Part shown: piece by piece, positions 519 through 32,010 of the stretch
How the letters are laid out: every line of letters starts with the position of its first letter
How positions within the stretch are numbered: position 1 is the first letter of the stretch
Assembly (NCBI GenBank): GCA_020073185.1
Contig: JAIQFT010000010.1
Location: 1-64,000 of the forward strand
DNA length: 64,000 bases
Direction of reading: 5' to 3'
Source of the DNA: Terriglobia bacterium
GTDB lineage: Bacteria > Acidobacteriota > Terriglobia > Terriglobales > Acidobacteriaceae
Position numbers and translations under genes: made by a program
The notes under the pieces: model-generated
The model's database searches: none
Told to the model about the DNA's origin: nothing
What the model saw: the letters and a program-made list of their open reading frames with translations, nothing else

Positions 519-3119
519 TTATCTTTTGTGCCTTCGCTGCGCCCGCGATGGCTTCTCCTCGATGACCGCAAACTGGAGCTTGCGTTGCACGCTATCAATG
601 CGGTCCAGGATCACGCGTACGCGTTCGCCCAGCGAATACTTCTTCTTGGTTCGCTGGCCGATGATCTGCTTGGTAGTGTCGTGGTAGGTGTACTGGTCGT
701 CGGTGAGGCTGGAAAGCGGCACCAGTCCCTCGATGAACATGTCCATCAGCTCGACAAAGAAGCCGAACTTGGTCACGCTGATAATGAGCGCCTCAAATTC
801 CTCGCCCACGCGGCCCTGCATGAACTTGATCTTCTTCCAGTCCATCAGCTCGCGTTCGGCATCGTCGGCGCGCCGCTCCGCCCCGGATGACTCCTGCGCA
901 ATGTCGTGCAAGACCTCGGGCGGGACGGGGCCATCGTGTTCAGCGGCTGAAGCCGCATCTTTGTCATGTCGCTTTTCGGCACGACTGAAGTCGTGCCCTG
1001 ATACACGGGCCGCGTGTCCCGCCCGCTTCGGCGACCCCTTCGCCCACGGCGACTCTTGTTTTTCCTGGAGCCTAGAGCCCGAAGCCTGAAGCCTCATCTC
1101 CGCCCACGCTCCGTGTTTTTCGCTCAGCACTCCGACACCCAACGGCACTGGGCCATCGTGCTTCTCTGCCGATTCCACCAGTACCTCTTTCAAAATCCGG
1201 TGCACGATCAGGTCCGGATAACGCCGAATCGGCGAGGTGAAGTGGGTGTAGGTCGGCGCCGCCAGCGCGAAATGGCCGACGTTCTCCTCCGAGTACTTCG
1301 CCTGCTTCAGAGAGCGCAGCATCAGGTACGACAGGATTCGCTCCTCCGGCTTGCCCGCGATCTTCTCGGCCAGCTTCTGGTACATGTGCGGCGTAATGTG
1401 CACGTCCTCGGGAATTTCCAGCTCGTGTTGCCGCTGCCCCGAGCGCGTGCGCGGCCCCGGCCCGCGGCCCGGCCGTCGCTGATCGGTGTACGAAAAGCGT
1501 TTCACCGGCAGCGCGCCCACACCGAGCGAGTACCCGAACGCGGCCGCGATGCTCTCGAACTCGTAAACCCGCTTGGGATCGGGCTTCTCGTGGATGCGAT
1601 AGAGCGACGGCACATCCTTGTTCTCCAGGTACGAGGCCACGCTCTCGTTGGCGGCCAGCATGAACTCCTCGATCAGCCGATGCGCGACATTGCGCTCCGA
1701 GCGCGTGATCGCCTTCATCAGCCCGAATTCGTCGAACTCGATCACCGGCTCCGGCAGGTCGAAATCGATGGAGCCGCGCCGCACCCGTTTCCGGTTCAGT
1801 ATCATCGCCAGCTCGCGCATCAATTCGAACACGTCCACCAACGCGTGGTAGCGCTCGCGGAGCTTGGCGTCGCCCTCCAAAACGGCGTTGACATCGGTGT
1901 ACGTCATACGCTCGGTCGAGCGGATCACGCCCGGGGTGATTTCGTAGCCCACGATGTCGCCCTTGGGATCGATCTTCATCACGCACGACATTACCAGCCG
2001 ATCCAGGTGCGGCCGCAGCGAGCAGATGTCGGTAGAAAGCTCAATCGGAAGCATCGGGACGGCGCGGTCCGGGAAGTACACCGAGGTGCCGCGCAGCCGC
2101 GCCTCCGCATCCAGCGCCGCTCCCGGGCGCACGTAATGCGCAACGTCGGCGATGTGCACCTGCAGCTCGAAGTTTCCGTTGTGCAGCCGGCGGACAAACA
2201 CCGCGTCGTCGAAATCGCGCGCCGTCTCGCCGTCGATGGTGACGATGGGCAGGTTGCGGTAGTCGCGGCGTCCGCGCAGCTCCCGTGCCGGGATGATGTT
2301 CTCGAAAGACTGCGCCTCCTCCAGCACGTCGGTTGGAAAACGGTGCGGCAGGTGGTACTTGCGAATGACGATCTCCACGTCCACGCCGAAATCGTCTTCG
2401 TAGCCGAGAATCTCCACCACGCGCCCGCGCGGGTTCTGGGTCGGCGTCGGCCACTCCGTGATCTCGACGTCGACAACGACGTTTTCCAGATCCCCGGCAA
2501 CCTCTGTGCGCTTCGCCTCCGACCCGAGCACGCGGTGCCGTTCTTTCTGCTTGGTTGGTTGCTCCGTGTCCTCTGTGGTGGGTTTCCTGGGGATTTCCGC
2601 GCCGCGCGGGATCACGATATCCAGCGTGACCTTCTCGTCCATGGGCGTGACGTAGTTGTAGCGCGGGCCGTAATGAAACGTGCCCACCACCGTGGCGTGC
2701 GCCCGCCCGATGACGCGCAGGACCTGCCCCTCGGCCCGCCCGTCGGCCCGTTCTCGCCGCAGCTCCACCAGCACACGGTCGCCATGCATGGCATTGCCGG
2801 TGTTCTGAGAGCCGATGTAGATATCGCCATTCAGCCGCTGCCGCAGCTCTTCGCTGTCGGGAATCACAAACCCGTAGCCGTCGCGGTGCATGGTCAGGCG
2901 GCCCGCGACCAGGTTCTGGTCGGAAGATCTGGGGGGGATGGCGTAGCGGTCGCCATCCTGCGCCACCAACTCGCCGCGCCGCACAAGCTGGTTGAGACGC
3001 TCGGCCAGTTCCCGCCGCTCGTCGCCGCGCGCGCCCAGTTCGCGCACCAATTGCTTGAACCCGGCCGACTGCTTGGGCTGCTGCCCGATTTTTCTTAGAA
3101 TGGCGCTGTCGGAAATCAT
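519..3119 (-). CDS. rnr: Ribonuclease R (3'-5' exoribonuclease) with repeat-derived insertions
   Basis: RNase R degrades structured RNA processively from the 3' end. The 866-residue product shows an N-terminal winged-helix/cold-shock region, the RNB catalytic domain with the metal-binding motif DGETARDFDDAVF near residues 300-315, the FTSPIRRYPD motif, and a C-terminal S1 domain starting near DWKKIKFM. The ATG at 3119 is preferred to an upstream GTG that lies inside an intergenic repeat. Two in-frame insertions are odd. Around residue 180-187 an 18-bp copy of the ACCACAGAGG intergenic element is translated. Between RNB and S1, about residues 676-726, a heptamer array and a two-part palindrome are translated. 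The key RNB motifs are intact, so the enzyme is probably active. Confidence 0.95.
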   Translation of the reverse strand: MISDSAILRKIGQQPKQSAGFKQLVRELGARGDERRELAERLNQLVRRGELVAQDGDRYAIPPRSSDQNLVAGRLTMHRDGYGFVIPDSEELRQRLNGDIYIGSQNTGNAMHGDRVLVELRRERADGRAEGQVLRVIGRAHATVVGTFHYGPRYNYVTPMDEKVTLDIVIPRGAEIPRKPTTEDTEQPTKQKERHRVLGSEAKRTEVAGDLENVVVDVEITEWPTPTQNPRGRVVEILGYEDDFGVDVEIVIRKYHLPHRFPTDVLEEAQSFENIIPARELRGRRDYRNLPIVTIDGETARDFDDAVFVRRLHNGNFELQVHIADVAHYVRPGAALDAEARLRGTSVYFPDRAVPMLPIELSTDICSLRPHLDRLVMSCVMKIDPKGDIVGYEITPGVIRSTERMTYTDVNAVLEGDAKLRERYHALVDVFELMRELAMILNRKRVRRGSIDFDLPEPVIEFDEFGLMKAITRSERNVAHRLIEEFMLAANESVASYLENKDVPSLYRIHEKPDPKRVYEFESIAAAFGYSLGVGALPVKRFSYTDQRRPGRGPGPRTRSGQRQHELEIPEDVHITPHMYQKLAEKIAGKPEERILSYLMLRSLKQAKYSEENVGHFALAAPTYTHFTSPIRRYPDLIVHRILKEVLVESAEKHDGPVPLGVGVLSEKHGAWAEMRLQASGSRLQEKQESPWAKGSPKRAGHAARVSGHDFSRAEKRHDKDAASAAEHDGPVPPEVLHDIAQESSGAERRADDAERELMDWKKIKFMQGRVGEEFEALIISVTKFGFFVELMDMFIEGLVPLSSLTDDQYTYHDTTKQIIGQRTKKKYSLGERVRVILDRIDSVQRKLQFAVIEEKPSRAQRRHKR
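917..1096 (-). repeat. Intergenic-type repeats inside rnr: 7-bp array plus two-part palindrome
   Basis: Positions 1064-1094 are four 7-base units such as CCTGGAG and CCTAGAG. Over 27 bases they match the array between yidD and yidC (24615-24641) with one difference. Positions 943-956 and 978-997 are two palindromes with CTGAAG centres, 21 bases apart. That is the same architecture as the intergenic pairs at 55.1 and 58.25 kb. All of it is read in frame as RNase R residues. Confidence 0.85.
2562..2580 (-). repeat. ACCACAGAGG-type element inside rnr
   Basis: The minus strand reads ACCACAGAGGACACGGAG, identical over 18 bases to the intergenic copy at 31710-31727. It encodes TTEDTE in a stretch that RNase R homologues normally lack. 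Confidence 0.75.
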
Positions 3120-3127
3120 CGGGAACC

Positions 3128-3262
3128 TAACCACAGAGGACGCAGAGGTATCAGAAGATGCTTAATAATCGGTTTTGAAGGGCGCTTCCAGTCACGGTAG
3201 CCGCCAGGCGCCAAGAGCTGGAAAGCCAAATGCCTCAGTGTCCCTCCGTGTTCTCCGCGGTT
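3128..3262. repeat. Inverted pair of ACCACAGAGG-type elements between rnr and the kinase gene
   Basis: A copy at 3128-3148 (TAACCACAGAGGACGCAGAGG with one base trimmed) faces an inverted copy at 3242-3262 across about 90 bases. The left copy overlaps the discarded GTG start of rnr. The right copy overlaps the stop codon of the kinase gene. No gene lies between them. Confidence 0.7.
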
Positions 3263-5684
3263 AGTGTTTTGTTTCAGAGTTGAACCTGTCCTGACACTGC
3301 TTGGCTTCGGCCTTGAGCACTGCGAAAGCCGGCGTGGCGCGCAGCTTGGCCAGCGCGGGATCGGTCCGCAGCGCGGTGTTGGAGCAGTAGTTTTGCTGGA
3401 TGGCGCTGCGGATCAGCACCGCCGCCGTGTCCACTTCGCCGCACCACGCCAGCAGCGAGCCGTGATAGTAGCGGAACTCGGGATCGCGCTGCGCCATCAA
3501 CCCCGGTTCCGCCGCCCGCGTCAGGCGATGCATTTCCGCCGGCGAGACCGGCTTCAGGCACGCCTGCAGCAGAGTGGCATACCATGCCGGACGCGACGAA
3601 ATCTTGGTCGCCGCCACCCGCGCTTCGTCGGGCTTGTTTTCGCGGATCAAGAGCGCCGGAAAGACGCTCGCCGCCCAGTCCGACCCGCTGTCCAGGTGGA
3701 CATACTCCAGCGCGCGAGTCGTGTTCCCCAGCTCGAAGAAGACAAACGAGCAGGAGCGGAAATCGTAGTTGTCGGGATCAAGTGCCAGCGCGGCGTCACA
3801 CTCTTTCGCCGCGTCGTGCAGAAGTCCCGCGTAGCGCAGTACATAGGCCAGCGTGAAGTGCGCCTGCGCGTTTTCCGGGCGCCGCTTCACCAGTTCCATC
3901 GCCTCTCGGTACGCCTTTGCGATCCGGCCGCCCTCGGCGCGCAGCCGGATCAGGTGGGCCGCCGAGGAAATCAGGTTCTCATCCAGCGCCAGCGCCTTTT
4001 CGTAGGCCGCCGCCGACTTGTCAAGCGCCTCCTGACCTCCGCCCGAGTACTGCGCTTCGTAGTAATAGCGCAGTCCGAGCGCGTCCCATGCCGGCGCGAA
4101 CTTCGGATCCAGCTCCACCGAGCGCTCCAGCATGGTTACGGCGGTGCTGTTGGGCGCCACATCGTGCGGCAGCGCAGAACCGCGGAGGTACAGATCGTAG
4201 GCGGTAGGATCGTGCGGCTGGGTGGCGGTGGCGAAGGTTGCCCCCGTAGAACCCAGTGCCGGCAGCAATCCCTGCCGCACCTGCGCCGCCAGATCTTCCT
4301 GCAGGGTCAGCAGGTTCGACGCCGGCACCGTCACCGTGCCCTGCCACACCAGGCGGTTGAAACGGGTGTCCACGTCGTCCAGGGTGATGATGAGGCGCTC
4401 GCCCTGGCTCATGTAATGGCCGGTGAGCACATTGGCGGCGTGCAACTCGCGCCCTGCCTGCTGGGGATCGTAGTTGCCTTGCAGGTATTTCGCGGTGGAC
4501 GGCACGGGGCGGATCTCCAGCGCGCGCGTGTACGCGAGGATCTTCACCAGTTGGTCTGGCACGGCGAAGCGCAGGTAGTCCGTGTCCGGATCGCCGCTGA
4601 CGTTATTGAACGGGAGCACGACGATCGTGTTGTTCGCCACCGCCGGCGCCGGCACAGCGCGTCCGTGCTTTGCCCACCAAACGGTGATCACGAGCAGGAT
4701 CATTACCAGCAGGCCGGCGATTGCAACCAACGCGTAAATCTGCCGGAGGCTCAGCTTGCGGAAGGTTCGGGTGGAAGCCAGGGGCGCCTGCGCCGGCACC
4801 TCGGCCCCGACCGCTCGCAATTCCAACTCGCGCTTCAGCGCCCGCAAGTCCTGCGCCAGTTCACGCGCGCTCTGGTAGCGCTGTGCGCGGTCTTTCTCCA
4901 GCAGCTTGCCGACAATGGCCTCAAAGCCCGGCGGCAGCGATGGGTTCATGGTCAGCGGCGATACCGGCTTTTCGTGCTGGATCGCGGCCAGCGCCTGCAC
5001 CGAGGTGCGCGCCAGGAACGGCTTGCGTCCGGTCGCCGCCTCGTAGAGCACGATTCCCAGGGAAAACAAATCACTGCGCGCGTCGAGTTGCTCGCACCGC
5101 GCCTGCTCCGGCGACATGTACACCGTCGTCCCCGGGATGACGTTCATCTCCGTAATTGCCTCGCTCGGGCGTGAACGAGGCCGCGCGTCGCCGACGGTCA
5201 CCAGTTGCGGCTCCGGCGCCAATTTGGCCAGCCCGAAATCCAGGATTTTCGCCTGCCCGCGGTGGGTCAGGAAGATGTTCCCCGGCTTTACGTCGCGGTG
5301 CACGACGCCCTTCGCGTGCGCCGCGTCCAGCGCGTCCGCGATCTGGATCCCGATGTCCAGCACCTCCAGGGCATCCAGCGGGCCGCGCTCCAGCCGATCT
5401 TTGAGGCTCTGCCCTTCCAGCAACTCCATCACGATGAAGGGCAGGCCGTTGTGCGATGCGATGTCGTAGACGGTGCAGATATTGGGGTGGTTCAGCGAAG
5501 AGGTGGTGCGGGCTTCCAGTTGGAAACGCTCCAGGGAAGCGGCGTTGCCGGCGACGTCTTCCGGAATGAATTTCAGGGCGGCCCGCCGCCCCAGGCGGAT
5601 GTCCTCGCCCTCATACACCATACCCATGCCGCCGCCGCCCAACTTTCTCACAATGCGGTAGTGGGATATGGTTTGCCCAATCAC
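3261..5684 (-). CDS. Transmembrane Ser/Thr protein kinase with TolB-like and TPR output region
   Basis: This is a PknB-type kinase of 807 residues. Kinase residues 8-275 contain the glycine loop [13 protein letters not shown], the lysine in ALKF, catalytic HRDVKPGN and DFG (DFGLAKL). One membrane segment lies near residues 314-336. The extracytoplasmic part has a TolB/FlgO-like domain (about 353-475, starting [14 protein letters not shown]) followed by tetratricopeptide-like helices to the end. This arrangement is typical of acidobacterial kinases in which the outer region is thought to bind partners. The start is GTG. The gene stands alone, and the substrate is unknown. Confidence 0.93.
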
Positions 5685-21096: not shown

Positions 21097-21240
21097 TGCG
21101 CCCCCCTTAACTTCGGGGACTTCCGAAACGCGTGTCGCGGTTGTTTCCGTCACGGCTGTGCCCCTCCCGCTGGCGATCTGCCCGAAACCGCACGGCTGGG
21201 AGCGCTCTCGGGTGCTGTGTGCATGAATCCTATGGACTTA

Positions 21241-21641: not shown

Positions 21642-23063
21642 TCATCCGCCCAGCATCTCCGTCAGCTTATTCAACATCCGGCTCAGATCTTTGTCGCTCT
21701 TGCGGACGGTCTCGATCTTGTCGATCGAGTGCAGCACGGTGGTGTGGTGCTTGCCGCCAAACTGCCGCCCGATTTCCGGCAGCGACGAGTCCGTCATGTG
21801 CTTGGAGAGATACATGGCGATCTGCCGCGGGTACACGATCGCGCGCGAATTGTTCTTTGCCTTGATCTCCGCCAACCGCAGCCCAAACTGCTCCGCCACC
21901 GCCTTCTGAATGGAATCGATCGTGATCTTGCGCTGCTGCGAATCGATAAAATTCTTCAGCACCTGCTGAGCGTAAGGCAGAGTGATCTCCTGCCCGATCA
22001 GCGATGAGTGCGCGATCAGCCGGATCAGCGCACCTTCCAGCTCGCGCACGTTCGAGCGGATATTCGACGCGATGAATAGCGCCACGTCGGTCGGCAACTG
22101 CACCCGCTCCGATTCCGCCTTTTTCTGTAGGATGGCGACCTTGGTTTCCAGGTCCGGGGGCTGGATGTCGGCGATCAGGCCCCACTCGAAGCGTGAGCGC
22201 AGCCGGTCTTCGATCTCCGCCAGCTCCTTCGGCGGGCGGTCGCTGGCGATCACGATCTGCCGCATGGACTCGTGCAGCGCGTTGAAAGTGTGGAAGAACT
22301 CCTCTTGCGTCCGCTCCTTCTGCGCCAGGAACTGGATGTCGTCGATCAGCAGCACGTCCACGTTGCGGAACTTGTCGCGGAAGCTGGTCATCTTGTCGTA
22401 GCGCAGCGAGTTGATCATCTCGTTGGTGAAGCGCTCGCTCGACAAGTAGCAGATGGACATCTGTGGCAGCCGCTTCTTCACCTCGTGCCCGATGGCCTGC
22501 ATCAGATGCGTCTTGCCCATACCGACGCCGCCGTAAAGGAACAGCGGGTTGTAGGCCTTCGACGGCGATTCCGCGACCGCCAGGGCCGCGGCGTGCGCGA
22601 ACTGGTTACCGGCGCCGCAGACGAAGCCCTCGAAGGTATAGCGCGAGTTCAGTTGCGCGGCGCTGTCCCAGTCAAAGCGCTGCTGCTGCAGCTTCGCCGC
22701 CGCGGCGGCCGGAGCTGCGGCAGCAGAGGATGTCGCGGAGAAGCCGCCATTGTGTCGCACCGGCGTGTTGGCAGCCGGCGACGCCGCCGGCGCCGGCGGT
22801 TGCGGCGTCCCGGTGACGAACTCAACATCTTGGAACTCCAGGCCGAGAGCGTCGATCGCCTCCAGGATCAGGTCGGCGTAACGCTCCGCCATCTGCCCGA
22901 ACTCAGGGTTAGGCACCAGCACGAACAAGGTGTGGTCGTCGGAGTGGCTGAAACGGGTTGGCTTCAGCCACGTGTCGTAGGAATGGCGATTGATCTTTTT
23001 CTCAAGCGCCTCCAGGATTCGCATCCAGGGATTCACAGTAGAGGTGACAGACGACACGGACAT
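21642..23063 (-). CDS. dnaA: Chromosomal replication initiator protein DnaA
   Basis: DnaA opens the origin and loads the helicase. The 473-residue product has the helical N-terminal domain (WMRILEALEKKINRHSYDTW), an alanine-rich linker (about 100-130) and an AAA+ domain with Walker A GGVGMGKTHL and Walker B LLIDDIQFL. The C-terminal DNA-binding domain carries the signature GGKHHTTVLHSIDKIE. The ATG at 23063 (MSVSSVTSTVNP) is used; a start at 23102 is possible. The gene is followed by its own terminator and then dnaN. Confidence 0.97.
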   Translation of the reverse strand: MSVSSVTSTVNPWMRILEALEKKINRHSYDTWLKPTRFSHSDDHTLFVLVPNPEFGQMAERYADLILEAIDALGLEFQDVEFVTGTPQPPAPAASPAANTPVRHNGGFSATSSAAAAPAAAAAKLQQQRFDWDSAAQLNSRYTFEGFVCGAGNQFAHAAALAVAESPSKAYNPLFLYGGVGMGKTHLMQAIGHEVKKRLPQMSICYLSSERFTNEMINSLRYDKMTSFRDKFRNVDVLLIDDIQFLAQKERTQEEFFHTFNALHESMRQIVIASDRPPKELAEIEDRLRSRFEWGLIADIQPPDLETKVAILQKKAESERVQLPTDVALFIASNIRSNVRELEGALIRLIAHSSLIGQEITLPYAQQVLKNFIDSQQRKITIDSIQKAVAEQFGLRLAEIKAKNNSRAIVYPRQIAMYLSKHMTDSSLPEIGRQFGGKHHTTVLHSIDKIETVRKSDKDLSRMLNKLTEMLGG

Positions 23064-24353: not shown

Positions 24354-24626
24354 ATGAAGCCTGCACTGCTGTTGATAATTCGGCTCTACCAGCGGCTTGT
24401 CTCGCCGCTGCTGCCGCCGGCCTGCCGCTATGTGCCAACCTGCTCGGAATACGCCGCCGAAGCGCTCGAAATTCACGGCCCGTGGCAAGGCGCGGTGCGC
24501 GCGGCTTGGCGCCTGCTGCGCTGCCATCCTTTTTCTCGCGGCGGCTACGACCCGGTGCCACACACGCATGCCGAACCCGCCGTTAAACGACACGAAGTAG
24601 CTTCCGGCCTGACGCCTGGAGCCTAG
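24354..24626 (+). CDS. yidD: Membrane protein insertion efficiency factor YidD
   Basis: YidD is a small amphipathic protein that helps YidC insert inner-membrane proteins. The 90-residue product contains the family core: [20 protein letters not shown], then [14 protein letters not shown] and a conserved [12 protein letters not shown]. The last residues (about SGLTPGA) are encoded by the heptamer array that separates yidD from yidC, so the C-terminus appears extended by a repeat. The position between rnpA and yidC is standard. Confidence 0.93.
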
Positions 24627-24640
24627 AGCCTGAAGCCTGA
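24606..24640. repeat. Heptamer array between yidD and yidC
   Basis: Five 7-base units of the form AGCCTGA/AGCCTAG include the yidD stop and end one base before the yidC ATG. They share 26 of 27 bases with 1064-1090 inside rnr. Confidence 0.85.
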
Positions 24641-24641
24641 A

Positions 24642-26522
24642 ATGAACGGAAGCACGCAAAACCCGCAGCAAGAACCCGGCATGGAACGCCGGCTGCTGCT
24701 CGTCTTCATCCTCACCTTCGCCGTCCTGCTCATTTCGCAGCCGCTGCTGATGAAGTACTTCAAGCCGCCGGCCCAGGAACGGAAGGAGCAGAAGGCTCAA
24801 CCGGCCGCCACCCAGCCGGTCGCTCCGGCGCAAGCTCCGGCTGTGCCCGCTGCGCCCGTCAAGGCGCAACCCGGCGCCAAGGCCGCAGCCGCCAAGCAGG
24901 CCACCGCTGAGCGGGAGACGGTGATCGAAAACGATCTCTACAAGATCGTCTTCACCAACCGCGGCGCGCAGGTCAAGTCTTGGATCCTGAAAAAGTACGA
25001 CGACGATCAGGGACATCCGCTCGAGCTTGTCCACCAGGTTGCCGCGCAGCAGTCCGGCTATCCGCTCTCGCTCTGGACCTATGACGAAGCGCTGCGCAAG
25101 AAGCTAAGCTCGGCGCTCTATGTGGGCAGCGTGTTTCAGTTGGAAATACTGCAAGGAACTAATAGGGGTCAGGAGCTGACGCGTGGCAGTCCGATCAAAG
25201 CTCCCGCGACGATCGCTTTCGAGTACTCCGACGCCGACACCACCGTGCGCAAGCGCTTCCGCTTCGACCACTCCTACGTGGTCAAGGTCGAAACCTCGGT
25301 CACGCAGAATGGCCAGCCGGTGCGCGCCTATCCCGCGTGGCCGGCCGGCTTCGGCGATCAGACCACGCCCGCCTCGTACGCCAGCGCCACCGTTGATCTT
25401 TACAACGGCGAGACCAGTTGGCACGGCGGCGAGAAGGTCGTCCGCGAGCCCATCAAGAAGATCAGCAGCGGCGCCACCATCAACGGCCCCTTCGCCTGGG
25501 CCGGCGCTGCCGATCAGTATTTCGGCGCCGTGTTCATGCCCGACGATCCCAAGACCGCAGTGCTGGTCACGCTGCGCAACGCCATCGAAGTTCCCAAGGA
25601 CCCTGCCAAGCCCGAGGGCGAGAAGATCAAGCAAGAGGTGGTGGGCGCGGCGGTCGGCAATGTCAGCGGCCTCACCTCCGAGCGTCTTTTCGCCGGGCCG
25701 AAAAACCTGGACGTGCTGCAGTCGGTCAAGGCCCCCGCGCTTCCGGGGCAGGCGGCCTCCAACCTGGAAGGCATGGTGGACTTCGGCACCTATCTTGGCT
25801 TCATCGCCAAACCGCTATTCCTCTGGCTGCGCTGGACCTTCAAACACTTGGTCGGCAACTGGGGATGGTCGATCATCGTCCTGACCGTCATCATCAACAT
25901 CGTGGTCTTCCCGCTGCGGCTCACCAGCATGAAGTCGGCGCTGAAGATGCAGAAGCTCCAGCCGCAGATCAATGCCATCAAGAACCGCTACAGCCAAAAG
26001 ACGAAAAATCTTAAGCCGGGTGACCGCGCCGCCAAGATGGAGTTCTCGCAGCAACAGAACCAGGAAATCGCCGCCCTGTTCAAACGCGAGGGCGCCAGCC
26101 CCATGGGCGGCTGTATCCCGATGCTCATCCAGTTTCCGTTCCTGGTGGCGTTCTACTCCATGCTGGGCAGCGCTATCGAACTGCGGCACGCGCACTGGTT
26201 TTGGCTGCATGACCTTTCCTCGCCCGATCCGGTCCACATCCTGCCGATCCTGATCATCATCACCACGCTGGCCGTGCAGAAGATGACCCCGCAGGCGGGC
26301 ATGGATCCGGCGCAGCAGAAGGTCATGACCCTCATGATGCCGGTGATGCTCGGCATCATCTCGTGGAACCTGTCGTCGGGATTGTGCCTCTACTGGGTGA
26401 TGGGCAACCTGGTCTCGATCATCCAGCAGTTCTGGATGAACAACACCAAGTTCGGACAGGAAATGCGCGCCGAAGCCGAAAAGCGTGCTCGCAAGAAGGG
26501 CCTGGCGCCAACGAAGACGTAG
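24642..26522 (+). CDS. yidC: Membrane protein insertase YidC
   Basis: YidC inserts and folds inner-membrane proteins alone or with SecYEG. The 626-residue product has an N-terminal membrane anchor (about 16-35), a proline/alanine-rich linker, the large periplasmic beta-sandwich domain (about 85-370), and the C-terminal 60KD-IMP domain with five spans (about 385-605, including SPMGGCIPMLIQFPFLVAFY). This is the Gram-negative type layout. The ATG directly follows a heptamer array, so no normal Shine-Dalgarno sequence is visible. Confidence 0.96.
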   Translation: MNGSTQNPQQEPGMERRLLLVFILTFAVLLISQPLLMKYFKPPAQERKEQKAQPAATQPVAPAQAPAVPAAPVKAQPGAKAAAAKQATAERETVIENDLYKIVFTNRGAQVKSWILKKYDDDQGHPLELVHQVAAQQSGYPLSLWTYDEALRKKLSSALYVGSVFQLEILQGTNRGQELTRGSPIKAPATIAFEYSDADTTVRKRFRFDHSYVVKVETSVTQNGQPVRAYPAWPAGFGDQTTPASYASATVDLYNGETSWHGGEKVVREPIKKISSGATINGPFAWAGAADQYFGAVFMPDDPKTAVLVTLRNAIEVPKDPAKPEGEKIKQEVVGAAVGNVSGLTSERLFAGPKNLDVLQSVKAPALPGQAASNLEGMVDFGTYLGFIAKPLFLWLRWTFKHLVGNWGWSIIVLTVIINIVVFPLRLTSMKSALKMQKLQPQINAIKNRYSQKTKNLKPGDRAAKMEFSQQQNQEIAALFKREGASPMGGCIPMLIQFPFLVAFYSMLGSAIELRHAHWFWLHDLSSPDPVHILPILIIITTLAVQKMTPQAGMDPAQQKVMTLMMPVMLGIISWNLSSGLCLYWVMGNLVSIIQQFWMNNTKFGQEMRAEAEKRARKKGLAPTKT

Positions 26523-31633: not shown

Positions 31634-32010
31634 CTCAGTGTCCGTCTCTCCGGTGATTTCGCCAATCCGCGGGCAAACTCGTATTATCGCATCCACTCGT
31701 CGGGACTTAACCACAGAGGACACGGAGGGGCGGAACCAGGACCATTGCCGATTGCGCCTGGTCCAGCACGATTCGACAATTAGGCGAAGGCGCATTCGCC
31801 TTTGTCTTCCTCTGTGCCCTCTGTGGCTGACCCAAAGACCTACTAAAACGCTCGGGTTTGAACCCGCGACGCTCAAAGCGCCCGTTTTTGGCTGGTTTTC
31901 CACAGGTTAGTACCGAAAACCCGCGTAAAATCAGGCTGGAACGCTTCTCAATCCCGCGGACGCTGTTGTACCATGTTGGCTATTCGGACTCAAGTTCTTA
32001 AGGAGGATGC
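31634..32010. other. Intergenic region with inverted ACCACAGAGG elements and hup promoter
   Basis: An element at 31708-31728 faces an inverted copy at 31811-31832 across about 80 bases. The rest (31833-32010) is the leader of the HU gene, ending in a strong TAAGGAGG ribosome-binding site. A T-arm-like motif near 31856 does not complete a tRNA. Confidence 0.55.
31708..31832. repeat. Inverted pair of ACCACAGAGG-type elements
   Basis: The left copy is TAACCACAGAGGACACGGAG plus G. The right copy ends CTCTGTGGCTG on the plus strand. The organisation is the same as at 3128-3262. The left copy is identical over 18 bases to the one inside rnr. Confidence 0.7.

Follow-up and report, generated by a model that had tools for sequence, protein, structure and literature searches.

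Two loops of RNase R as probable recurrent landing sites for small genomic repeats in a family of Acidobacteria

Background

Palindromic repeats that lie in frame within genes have so far been discussed mainly for Rickettsia and for some genomes rich in repetitive extragenic palindromic (REP) sequences. As summarised in PMC10969869, the Rickettsia palindromic elements (RPEs) comprise several families of palindromic repeats, each with a recurring peptide, located in frame in conserved genes (Ogata et al. 2000). Here we analyse the gene of ribonuclease R (RNase R; rnr) in the first 64,000 nucleotides of contig JAIQFT010000010.1 of a Terriglobia bacterium (Acidobacteriaceae; assembly GCA_020073185.1), a stretch referred to as the window, where three small repeats, named A, B and C, lie in frame. 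Coordinates are those of the window unless another contig (C) or a collected locus (L) is named; G000 denotes this genome, and other G numbers denote the genomes compared with it.

The passages of PMC3733652 on GTAG/CGTC REPs describe these as mostly intergenic and sometimes within open reading frames (ORFs), many of them in genes for DNA synthesis and repair, and report that two Xanthomonas species carry different REPs at nearly the same place in recB. They also describe terminal inverted repeats associated with tyrosine transposases (TIRYTs) for Koribacter and other Acidobacteria, and the main text of that paper contains no occurrence of ribonuclease, RNase or rnr. Heptamer repeats are described for the Beggiatoaceae, where, according to PMC4679880, TAACTGA units lie mainly between genes.

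As far as the summary of RPEs goes, the repeats of the window resemble them in being palindromic, in lying in frame in conserved genes, in belonging to several families and in giving a recurring peptide. They differ in that the hosts here are soil Acidobacteria, in an element length of about 65 bp versus about 150 bp, and in that several unrelated families occupy, from genome to genome, one and the same pair of loops in a single enzyme; the likeness is one of description. Like the GTAG/CGTC REPs of PMC3733652, repeat A is a small palindromic repeat that is mostly intergenic and sometimes inside ORFs, but its end is mostly GTATCAG. As in the TIRYTs and TIRtrons, a gene for a Y1-type transposase stands between inverted copies of the repeat, further copies of which are scattered through the genome, whereas residence in frame in housekeeping genes, as seen here, is not described in the passages of that paper on TIRYTs. 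Repeat C has a period of seven and lies mainly between genes, as do the heptamers covered in PMC4679880; however, its unit consensus is RGKCKYY and one array is inside a coding gene. Among the literature matches listed, none dealt with repeats in the loops of RNase R or with REPs lying in frame in Acidobacteria, which is weak evidence of absence. In-frame REPs and RPEs are known, and what is new, as far as the matches listed show, is a pair of loops in a single enzyme that take up several families again and again.

We argue that small repeats multiplying in each genome of this Acidobacteria family land repeatedly in the two RNase R loops, where they are tolerated, a reading to which we assign a probability of about 0.8. 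In this family of soil bacteria six scored repeat families fill the two loops, and several of them match repeats abundant in the host. RNase R would then keep a natural record of small mobile repeats and offer a system in which to study the passage of non-coding DNA into protein, and lineage-specific insertions and deletions in such loops would be poor phylogenetic markers.

Results and discussion

RNase R of the window and its two hypervariable loops

The rnr reading frame (Table 1) comprises 871 open codons counted from the GTG at 3132-3134, although the ATG at 3117-3119 is the more probable start. OB_RNB, CSD2, RNB and S1 are all matched in this frame by Pfam, so that the OB/CSD-RNB-S1 architecture expected of RNase R is present, and NCBIfam calls the protein ribonuclease R with 746 bits against a cut-off of 598. 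An earlier note on this DNA, made from the sequence alone, had proposed that three different intergenic repeat families reside in RNase R with the frame kept and the RNB motifs intact, and both parts of this proposal hold: A (941-1005), C (1064-1094) and B (2562-2579) all lie in the open frame. B falls in an insert within CSD2 (loop 1), and A and C in an insert near the end of RNB (loop 2).

Both loops vary strongly in length and sequence from gene to gene among the 73 RNase R genes surveyed below. In the alignment with the chain of structure 5xgu, named Ribonuclease R and presumably from E. coli, 4 and 14 chain residues stand opposite 36 and 80 unaligned residues of the window protein at loops 1 and 2, respectively, and loop 2 has only 15 residues in one family member (L037). 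The inserted residues are therefore not conserved in distant RNase R proteins, as the idea of insertion would have it. A predicted structure computed with 20 relatives was set aside as evidence (mean predicted local distance difference test score 57, predicted template modelling score 0.42), as much of its C-terminal half is of low confidence, like both loops; since this prediction is poor, the surface position of the loops is something we infer. We also dropped an internal HDGPVP duplication around the loop 2 insert, as G002, which lacks the palindrome, shows similar motifs at either end.

Table 1. Location of the RNase R gene, its two loops and the repeat copies in the window
Feature	Position	Strand	Remarks
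RNase R (rnr) coding sequence	519..3119	-	preferred ATG 3117-3119; GTG 3132-3134 also open
Loop 1, hypervariable insert inside CSD2	2535..2600	-	residues 179-200 of the 871-residue frame
Loop 2, hypervariable insert near RNB end	918..1178	-	residues 653-739; between HRILKEVL and EVLHDIAQES
Repeat A, TGTATCAG-GGCACGACTTCAGTCGTGCC-N-CGGCTTCAGCCG-CTG	941..1005	-	read about VSGHDFSRAEKRHDKDAASAA; among four genus members examined, in G000 only
Repeat B, ACCACAGAGGACACGGAG	2562..2579	-	single arm, read TTEDTE; present in G001 too
Repeat C, heptamer array (AGGCTTC-type units)	1064..1094	-	also in G001; AGTCGCC units in G002
Second B copy, just upstream of the likely rnr start codon	3131..3147	+	possible partner arm near 3241-3265, by eye only
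B copy with both arms	31710..31826	.	arms 31711-31727 (+) and 31810-31826 (-)
Heptamer array at yidD-like end and in spacer before yidC-like ORF	24615..24641	+	26/27 bases as in rnr

All three repeats recur elsewhere in the genome, as the earlier note had supposed. The first hairpin of A is found at 29 places at up to two mismatches, CCACAGAGGACACGGAGCAA of B at 29 places at up to three mismatches, and the general heptamer pattern gives 57 overlapping matches, against 0, 0 and 2, respectively, for the reversed patterns.

Repeat families in the RNase R loops of relatives

We collected 79 RNase R loci, from 30 of the 60 matched genomes (61 searched) and from 49 of 62 further loci, the other 13 of which (L138-L145 and L147-L151) were Bacilli or Tenericutes and were excluded. 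Dropping six duplicates left 73 distinct genes, in six of which one loop only was seen; to judge by their titles, most of the named relatives come from metagenome assemblies. In 30 of the 73 genes the two loops (18.8 kb) contain one or more of six repeat families (A to E and H), while the remaining coding sequence has a match in none of them (0/73). The window-derived families A, B and C alone account for 17 genes. At these moderate thresholds the loop counts are five for A, 14 for B, three for C, one for D, four (loop 1) and nine (loop 2) for E, and four for H; L090, which has a degraded palindrome below the thresholds, was left out. Families F and G, each in two genes at looser thresholds, were excluded from the 30 and from the genome searches. 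At looser thresholds the matches outside the loops include two of B (L016 and L017), both upstream of the likely start codon, and one of G (L093).

Several of these families are also abundant in the host. E has 13 to 87 copies at up to two mismatches in the nine genomes that were chosen for the search because their loops carry E, and none in the two others searched (G000 and G035). H has 9 to 61 copies in five genomes, namely the four that score in the loops and G009, with a loop of H-like appearance; G000 has none, against one for the control; two of the eleven H sites in G030 fall within rnr itself.

The loops are hypervariable, and repeats can misassemble in metagenome assemblies such as most of those used here, so the matches could in principle reflect chance or codon bias in low-complexity linkers, or an assembly artefact. 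However, codon-shuffled loops give only 0-0.2 matches per replicate even at looser thresholds. Perfect hairpins with a stem of at least 8 number 16 in loop 2, whereas 20 resamplings of synonymous codons give 3.25 on average and at most 8; in loop 1 there are three, with an average of 0.55 and at most 2 in the resamplings. Moreover, an exact 20-base palindrome occurs in the rnr genes of L016, L023, L123 and L126, dispersed copies have reversed controls of 0, and similar inserts are found in several independent assemblies, those of the window having flanks that align in frame to G001-G003. Chance or artefact is thus hardly credible as an explanation.

Repeat A, a bipartite palindrome with a candidate mover

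Repeat A consists, in this order, of a 5' TGTATCAG, a hairpin (8-bp stem, TTCA loop), a spacer, a second hairpin and CTG. The rnr copy has its hairpins at 978-997 and 941-956 and spans 65 bases, with a core of 57. In 40 bipartite copies from the collected loci the core measures 53-60 bases and the order of parts is identical; the claim that a two-part CTGAAG palindrome in rnr has the spacing of intergenic copies is thereby confirmed, with its bounds widened from 943-997 to 941-1005. Copies are present in 13 of the 17 genomes searched. A resembles the REPs associated with RAYTs (REP-associated tyrosine transposases) in its many dispersed, mostly extragenic palindromic copies, but it lacks their GTAG tag at the hairpin foot, where 33 of the 40 copies have GTATCAG and the remainder GTGAAAG, GTAGCAG, GTGAAAA or other letters.

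A 195-codon open frame on C40 of G000 matches Y1_Tnp at C40:21306-21533 (35.3 bits, cut-off 23; profile positions 23-103 of 121). It lies between inverted A copies at 21106-21125 and 21683-21702 of that contig, which is the layout of TIRYTs and TIRtrons. Judged from these sequence features, A would be a REP/TIR-type element for which the Y1_Tnp gene between inverted copies is a plausible mover. For B and C no mover was found, and no search aimed at one was made.

A second Y1_Tnp gene (L079, on G000:C8) lies between two identical palindromes, CCCGCCACTGAAGTGGCGGG, at L079:1124 and 1911, which have another stem and keep the CTGAAG centre. Loop 2 of L107 holds family H, also bipartite, with a right half (GGGGTTTCAGCCCCTGAGG) nearly as in A and a different left hairpin; the near identity of the right halves suggests modular ends.

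History of the three repeats within the genus

We compared four members of the genus, namely G000, G001, G002 and G003. B is found in G000 and in the 93%-identical G001, the array in G000, G001 and G002, and A in G000 alone. The array of G002 is made of AGTCGCC units in the same register and of the same 31-base length as the AGGCTTC array of G000 and G001. On either side of the A insert the flanking sequence aligns in frame to G001-G003. Since B and C are common to G001, and the array to G002 as well, both are old and a recent arrival was rejected for them, so that, by comparison of these genomes, A looks like the sole candidate for a recent event. The earlier note's suggestion that the repeats entered the enzyme at loop positions therefore stands, but A alone is a candidate for recent entry.

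In-frame copies of A in other genes

Under strict matching there are 72 A sites in four genomes (16 in G000, 11 in G006, 9 in G030 and 36 in G035; three of the 17 stretches of G030, L216-L218, had no pattern match and were dropped). A is mostly intergenic, and six of the 72 sites fall within named genes. Those of G000 are in rnr and the gene of a type ISP restriction enzyme, those of G006 in rnr and gyrA, and those of G030 in mnmE and mnmG. In gyrA (L225:799-2391, an ORF partial in its stretch) the copy lies in frame in the C-terminal beta-propeller part, while mnmE and mnmG (L211 and L203), the products of which work together, both carry an in-frame A in one genome. The type ISP gene has a CCACAGAGG element beside the palindrome. 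In all five genes (rnr, gyrA, mnmE, mnmG and type ISP) the insertion is in frame with the core domains intact, as in RPE-bearing genes.

All six in-gene copies are read as HDFSRA, a frame used by 19 of 77 open frames among the other copies. The length is divisible by three in five of six complete in-gene copies against 12 of 44 elsewhere (one-sided Fisher p 0.014), with mnmE (no second hairpin) and L123 (pattern unmatched) omitted and L126, the right end of which is altered, entered as 56. In G000, 43 ORFs cross repeat sites with at least 25 residues on either side; 14 were tested in Pfam and the remainder judged by position and composition. Eighteen more ORFs at A sites of G000 and G035 were compared with Pfam, and 17 of them matched no family; in the remaining one (L184) RibD_C begins about 70 residues after the palindrome, and A was taken as lying upstream of the gene start. 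Judged by open frames and domain matches, these repeats make a habit of lying in frame in genes other than RNase R as well; among the genes examined, RNase R is distinguished by the several families found in its loops across many genomes.

A different reason for the presence of hairpins in rnr would be a function in its messenger, either slowing ribosomes or serving as a decay signal for RNase R itself, for which they are retained. RNase R is thought to degrade structured RNA containing REPs, according to the account in PMC2777011, and both rnr inserts that we folded are more stable as RNA than their shuffled versions (z -3.05 for the A insert of the window, -3.95 for that of L023). However, the elements also reside in gyrA, mnmE, mnmG and the type ISP enzyme, a stem of at least 8 occurs in loop 2 of 13 of the 73 rnr genes only, and one element takes the place of another from relative to relative. 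The hairpins may have a regulatory role, but the data can be explained without it, and we consider retention for such a role quite improbable. It would be a long shot, too, that RNase R is a preferred target, the gene capturing hairpins that its product degrades, with a feedback role through messenger or loop peptide in the turnover of repeat RNA.

Weighing recurrent landing against copying and old inheritance

In the proposed course of events, the loops of the window would hold an old single arm of a CCACAGAGG inverted pair resembling miniature inverted-repeat transposable elements (MITEs), an old heptamer array, and a recent copy of a REP/TIR-type palindrome, for which a Y1 (HUH, RAYT/TIRYT-like) transposase acting in trans is the most likely mover. 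Copies disrupting the reading frame or the fold would be lost, whereas those that keep the frame would be read through as hydrophilic linker peptide, presumably neutral, and would later decay or be replaced. That the inserts are tolerated as peptide is suggested by the intact frame.

Several observations weigh against this reading. The families D, E and H, as well as F and G, were named after inspection of the loops, and their loop counts are therefore biased. The heptamer pattern at up to two mismatches has nine matches in the rest of the rnr genes, for which reason its threshold was tightened for the 73-gene count, and in whole genomes it is not above the reversed control in G003 (0 vs 5) or G029 (0 vs 19) and barely so in G031 (16 vs 11). 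Family D does not follow the host repertoire: the genome of L105, which carries D in a loop, has 18 copies, and the five other genomes searched have 3-26. None of the 36 A sites in G035 is clearly within a gene, hence colonisation varies strongly by genome. Some insertions are shared, namely the A followed by an E-like hairpin in L030, L123 and L126, which may be one event, and the E beside PWSKRR in several RNase R genes, and this lowers the number of independent events. Finally, the A-bearing loop is longer by only 24 bases than that of G001, the nearest relative, and by 33 bases than those of G002 and G003, whereas the element has 65 bases, and there is no clean empty site. As the net gain does not equal 65 bases, either resident sequence was lost, by replacement or by insertion and deletion, or the element was copied in.

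This mismatch of lengths speaks for copying without transposition, in which template switching, slippage or gene conversion with intergenic repeats replaces loop sequence. The same process would fit the heptamer array, the register and 31-base length of which are constant in G000, G001 and G002 although the units are AGGCTTC in the first two and AGTCGCC in the third; both units are frequent among the G002 matches listed. On the other hand, the rnr palindrome is complete, with both hairpins and the TGTATCAG end like the dispersed copies, and the lengths divisible by three of complete in-gene copies (five of six, above) fit the insertion of whole units. Template switching or gene conversion thus competes seriously as an explanation of C and may also apply to A, while copying as the general account seems to us rather doubtful.

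Recurrent landing has also to be weighed against old inheritance, with one ancestral insertion per loop that decayed differently in each lineage instead of repeated arrivals. The sharing of B and C by G000 and G001 would agree with it, as would the B arms of L050 described below, which persist in G002 and are more decayed in G003, the palindrome and E-like hairpin common to L030, L123 and L126, and the position of E next to PWSKRR. However, in the protein the SPW(A/S)K motif precedes A in G000 and G006 and follows it in L123, L126 and L030, and since this position differs, separate arrivals of A are argued. In addition, the best B match is reversed in two of 14 genes (three mismatches each), and E in the loop accompanies E in the genome. 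On a quick RNase R tree with the loops removed (72 rows, one row omitted; 24 of 69 inner forks weak), the least number of changes, losses included, is 4 for A, 10 for B, 6 for E, 4 for H and 3 for C, the C label taking in L038, which matches at the looser threshold only. With 3-10 minimal changes per family, losses counted too, old inheritance of single insertions appears unlikely, and recurrent landing is preferred.

Genomic copies of repeats B and C

The 18 bases of the CCACAGAGG element at 2562-2579 are identical to 31710-31727, as the earlier note had reported with an end coordinate of 2580, which we corrected to 2579. B copies are present in 19 of the 20 genomes searched. Some copies in G000 are inverted pairs about 40-170 bases apart (on C2, C5, C10, C25 and C95), while others are single, so that some B copies have the terminal inverted repeats around a short interior that are typical of MITEs. 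Both CCACAGAGG arms lie in frame in a membrane protein gene (L050:830-2464, on G000:C7; best Pfam match PMT_2, weak at 20.8 bits and below the cut-off). A recent arrival of this insert was rejected, both arms being present in G002 and more decayed arms at the same place in G003. Loop 1 of L018 (G002) has, where the window has CCACAGAGG, an in-frame GTCATCCTGAGCG...GAAGGACCT stretch that is D-like but below the threshold.

The entire 31-base array of C occurs at three places in the genome at up to three mismatches, itself included. The general heptamer pattern exceeds its reversed control in G001 (113 vs 4) and G002 (353 vs 4) as it does in G000. The 27 bases from 1064 differ at one position from 24615-24641, which agrees with the likeness to a yidD-yidC spacer pointed out earlier, except that the latter stretch is not wholly a spacer. 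It overlaps the end of an ORF (24354..24626) and extends up to the start of the next at 24642, the two of which we take to be yidD-like and yidC-like, and it provides the last residues and the stop codon of the yidD-like ORF.

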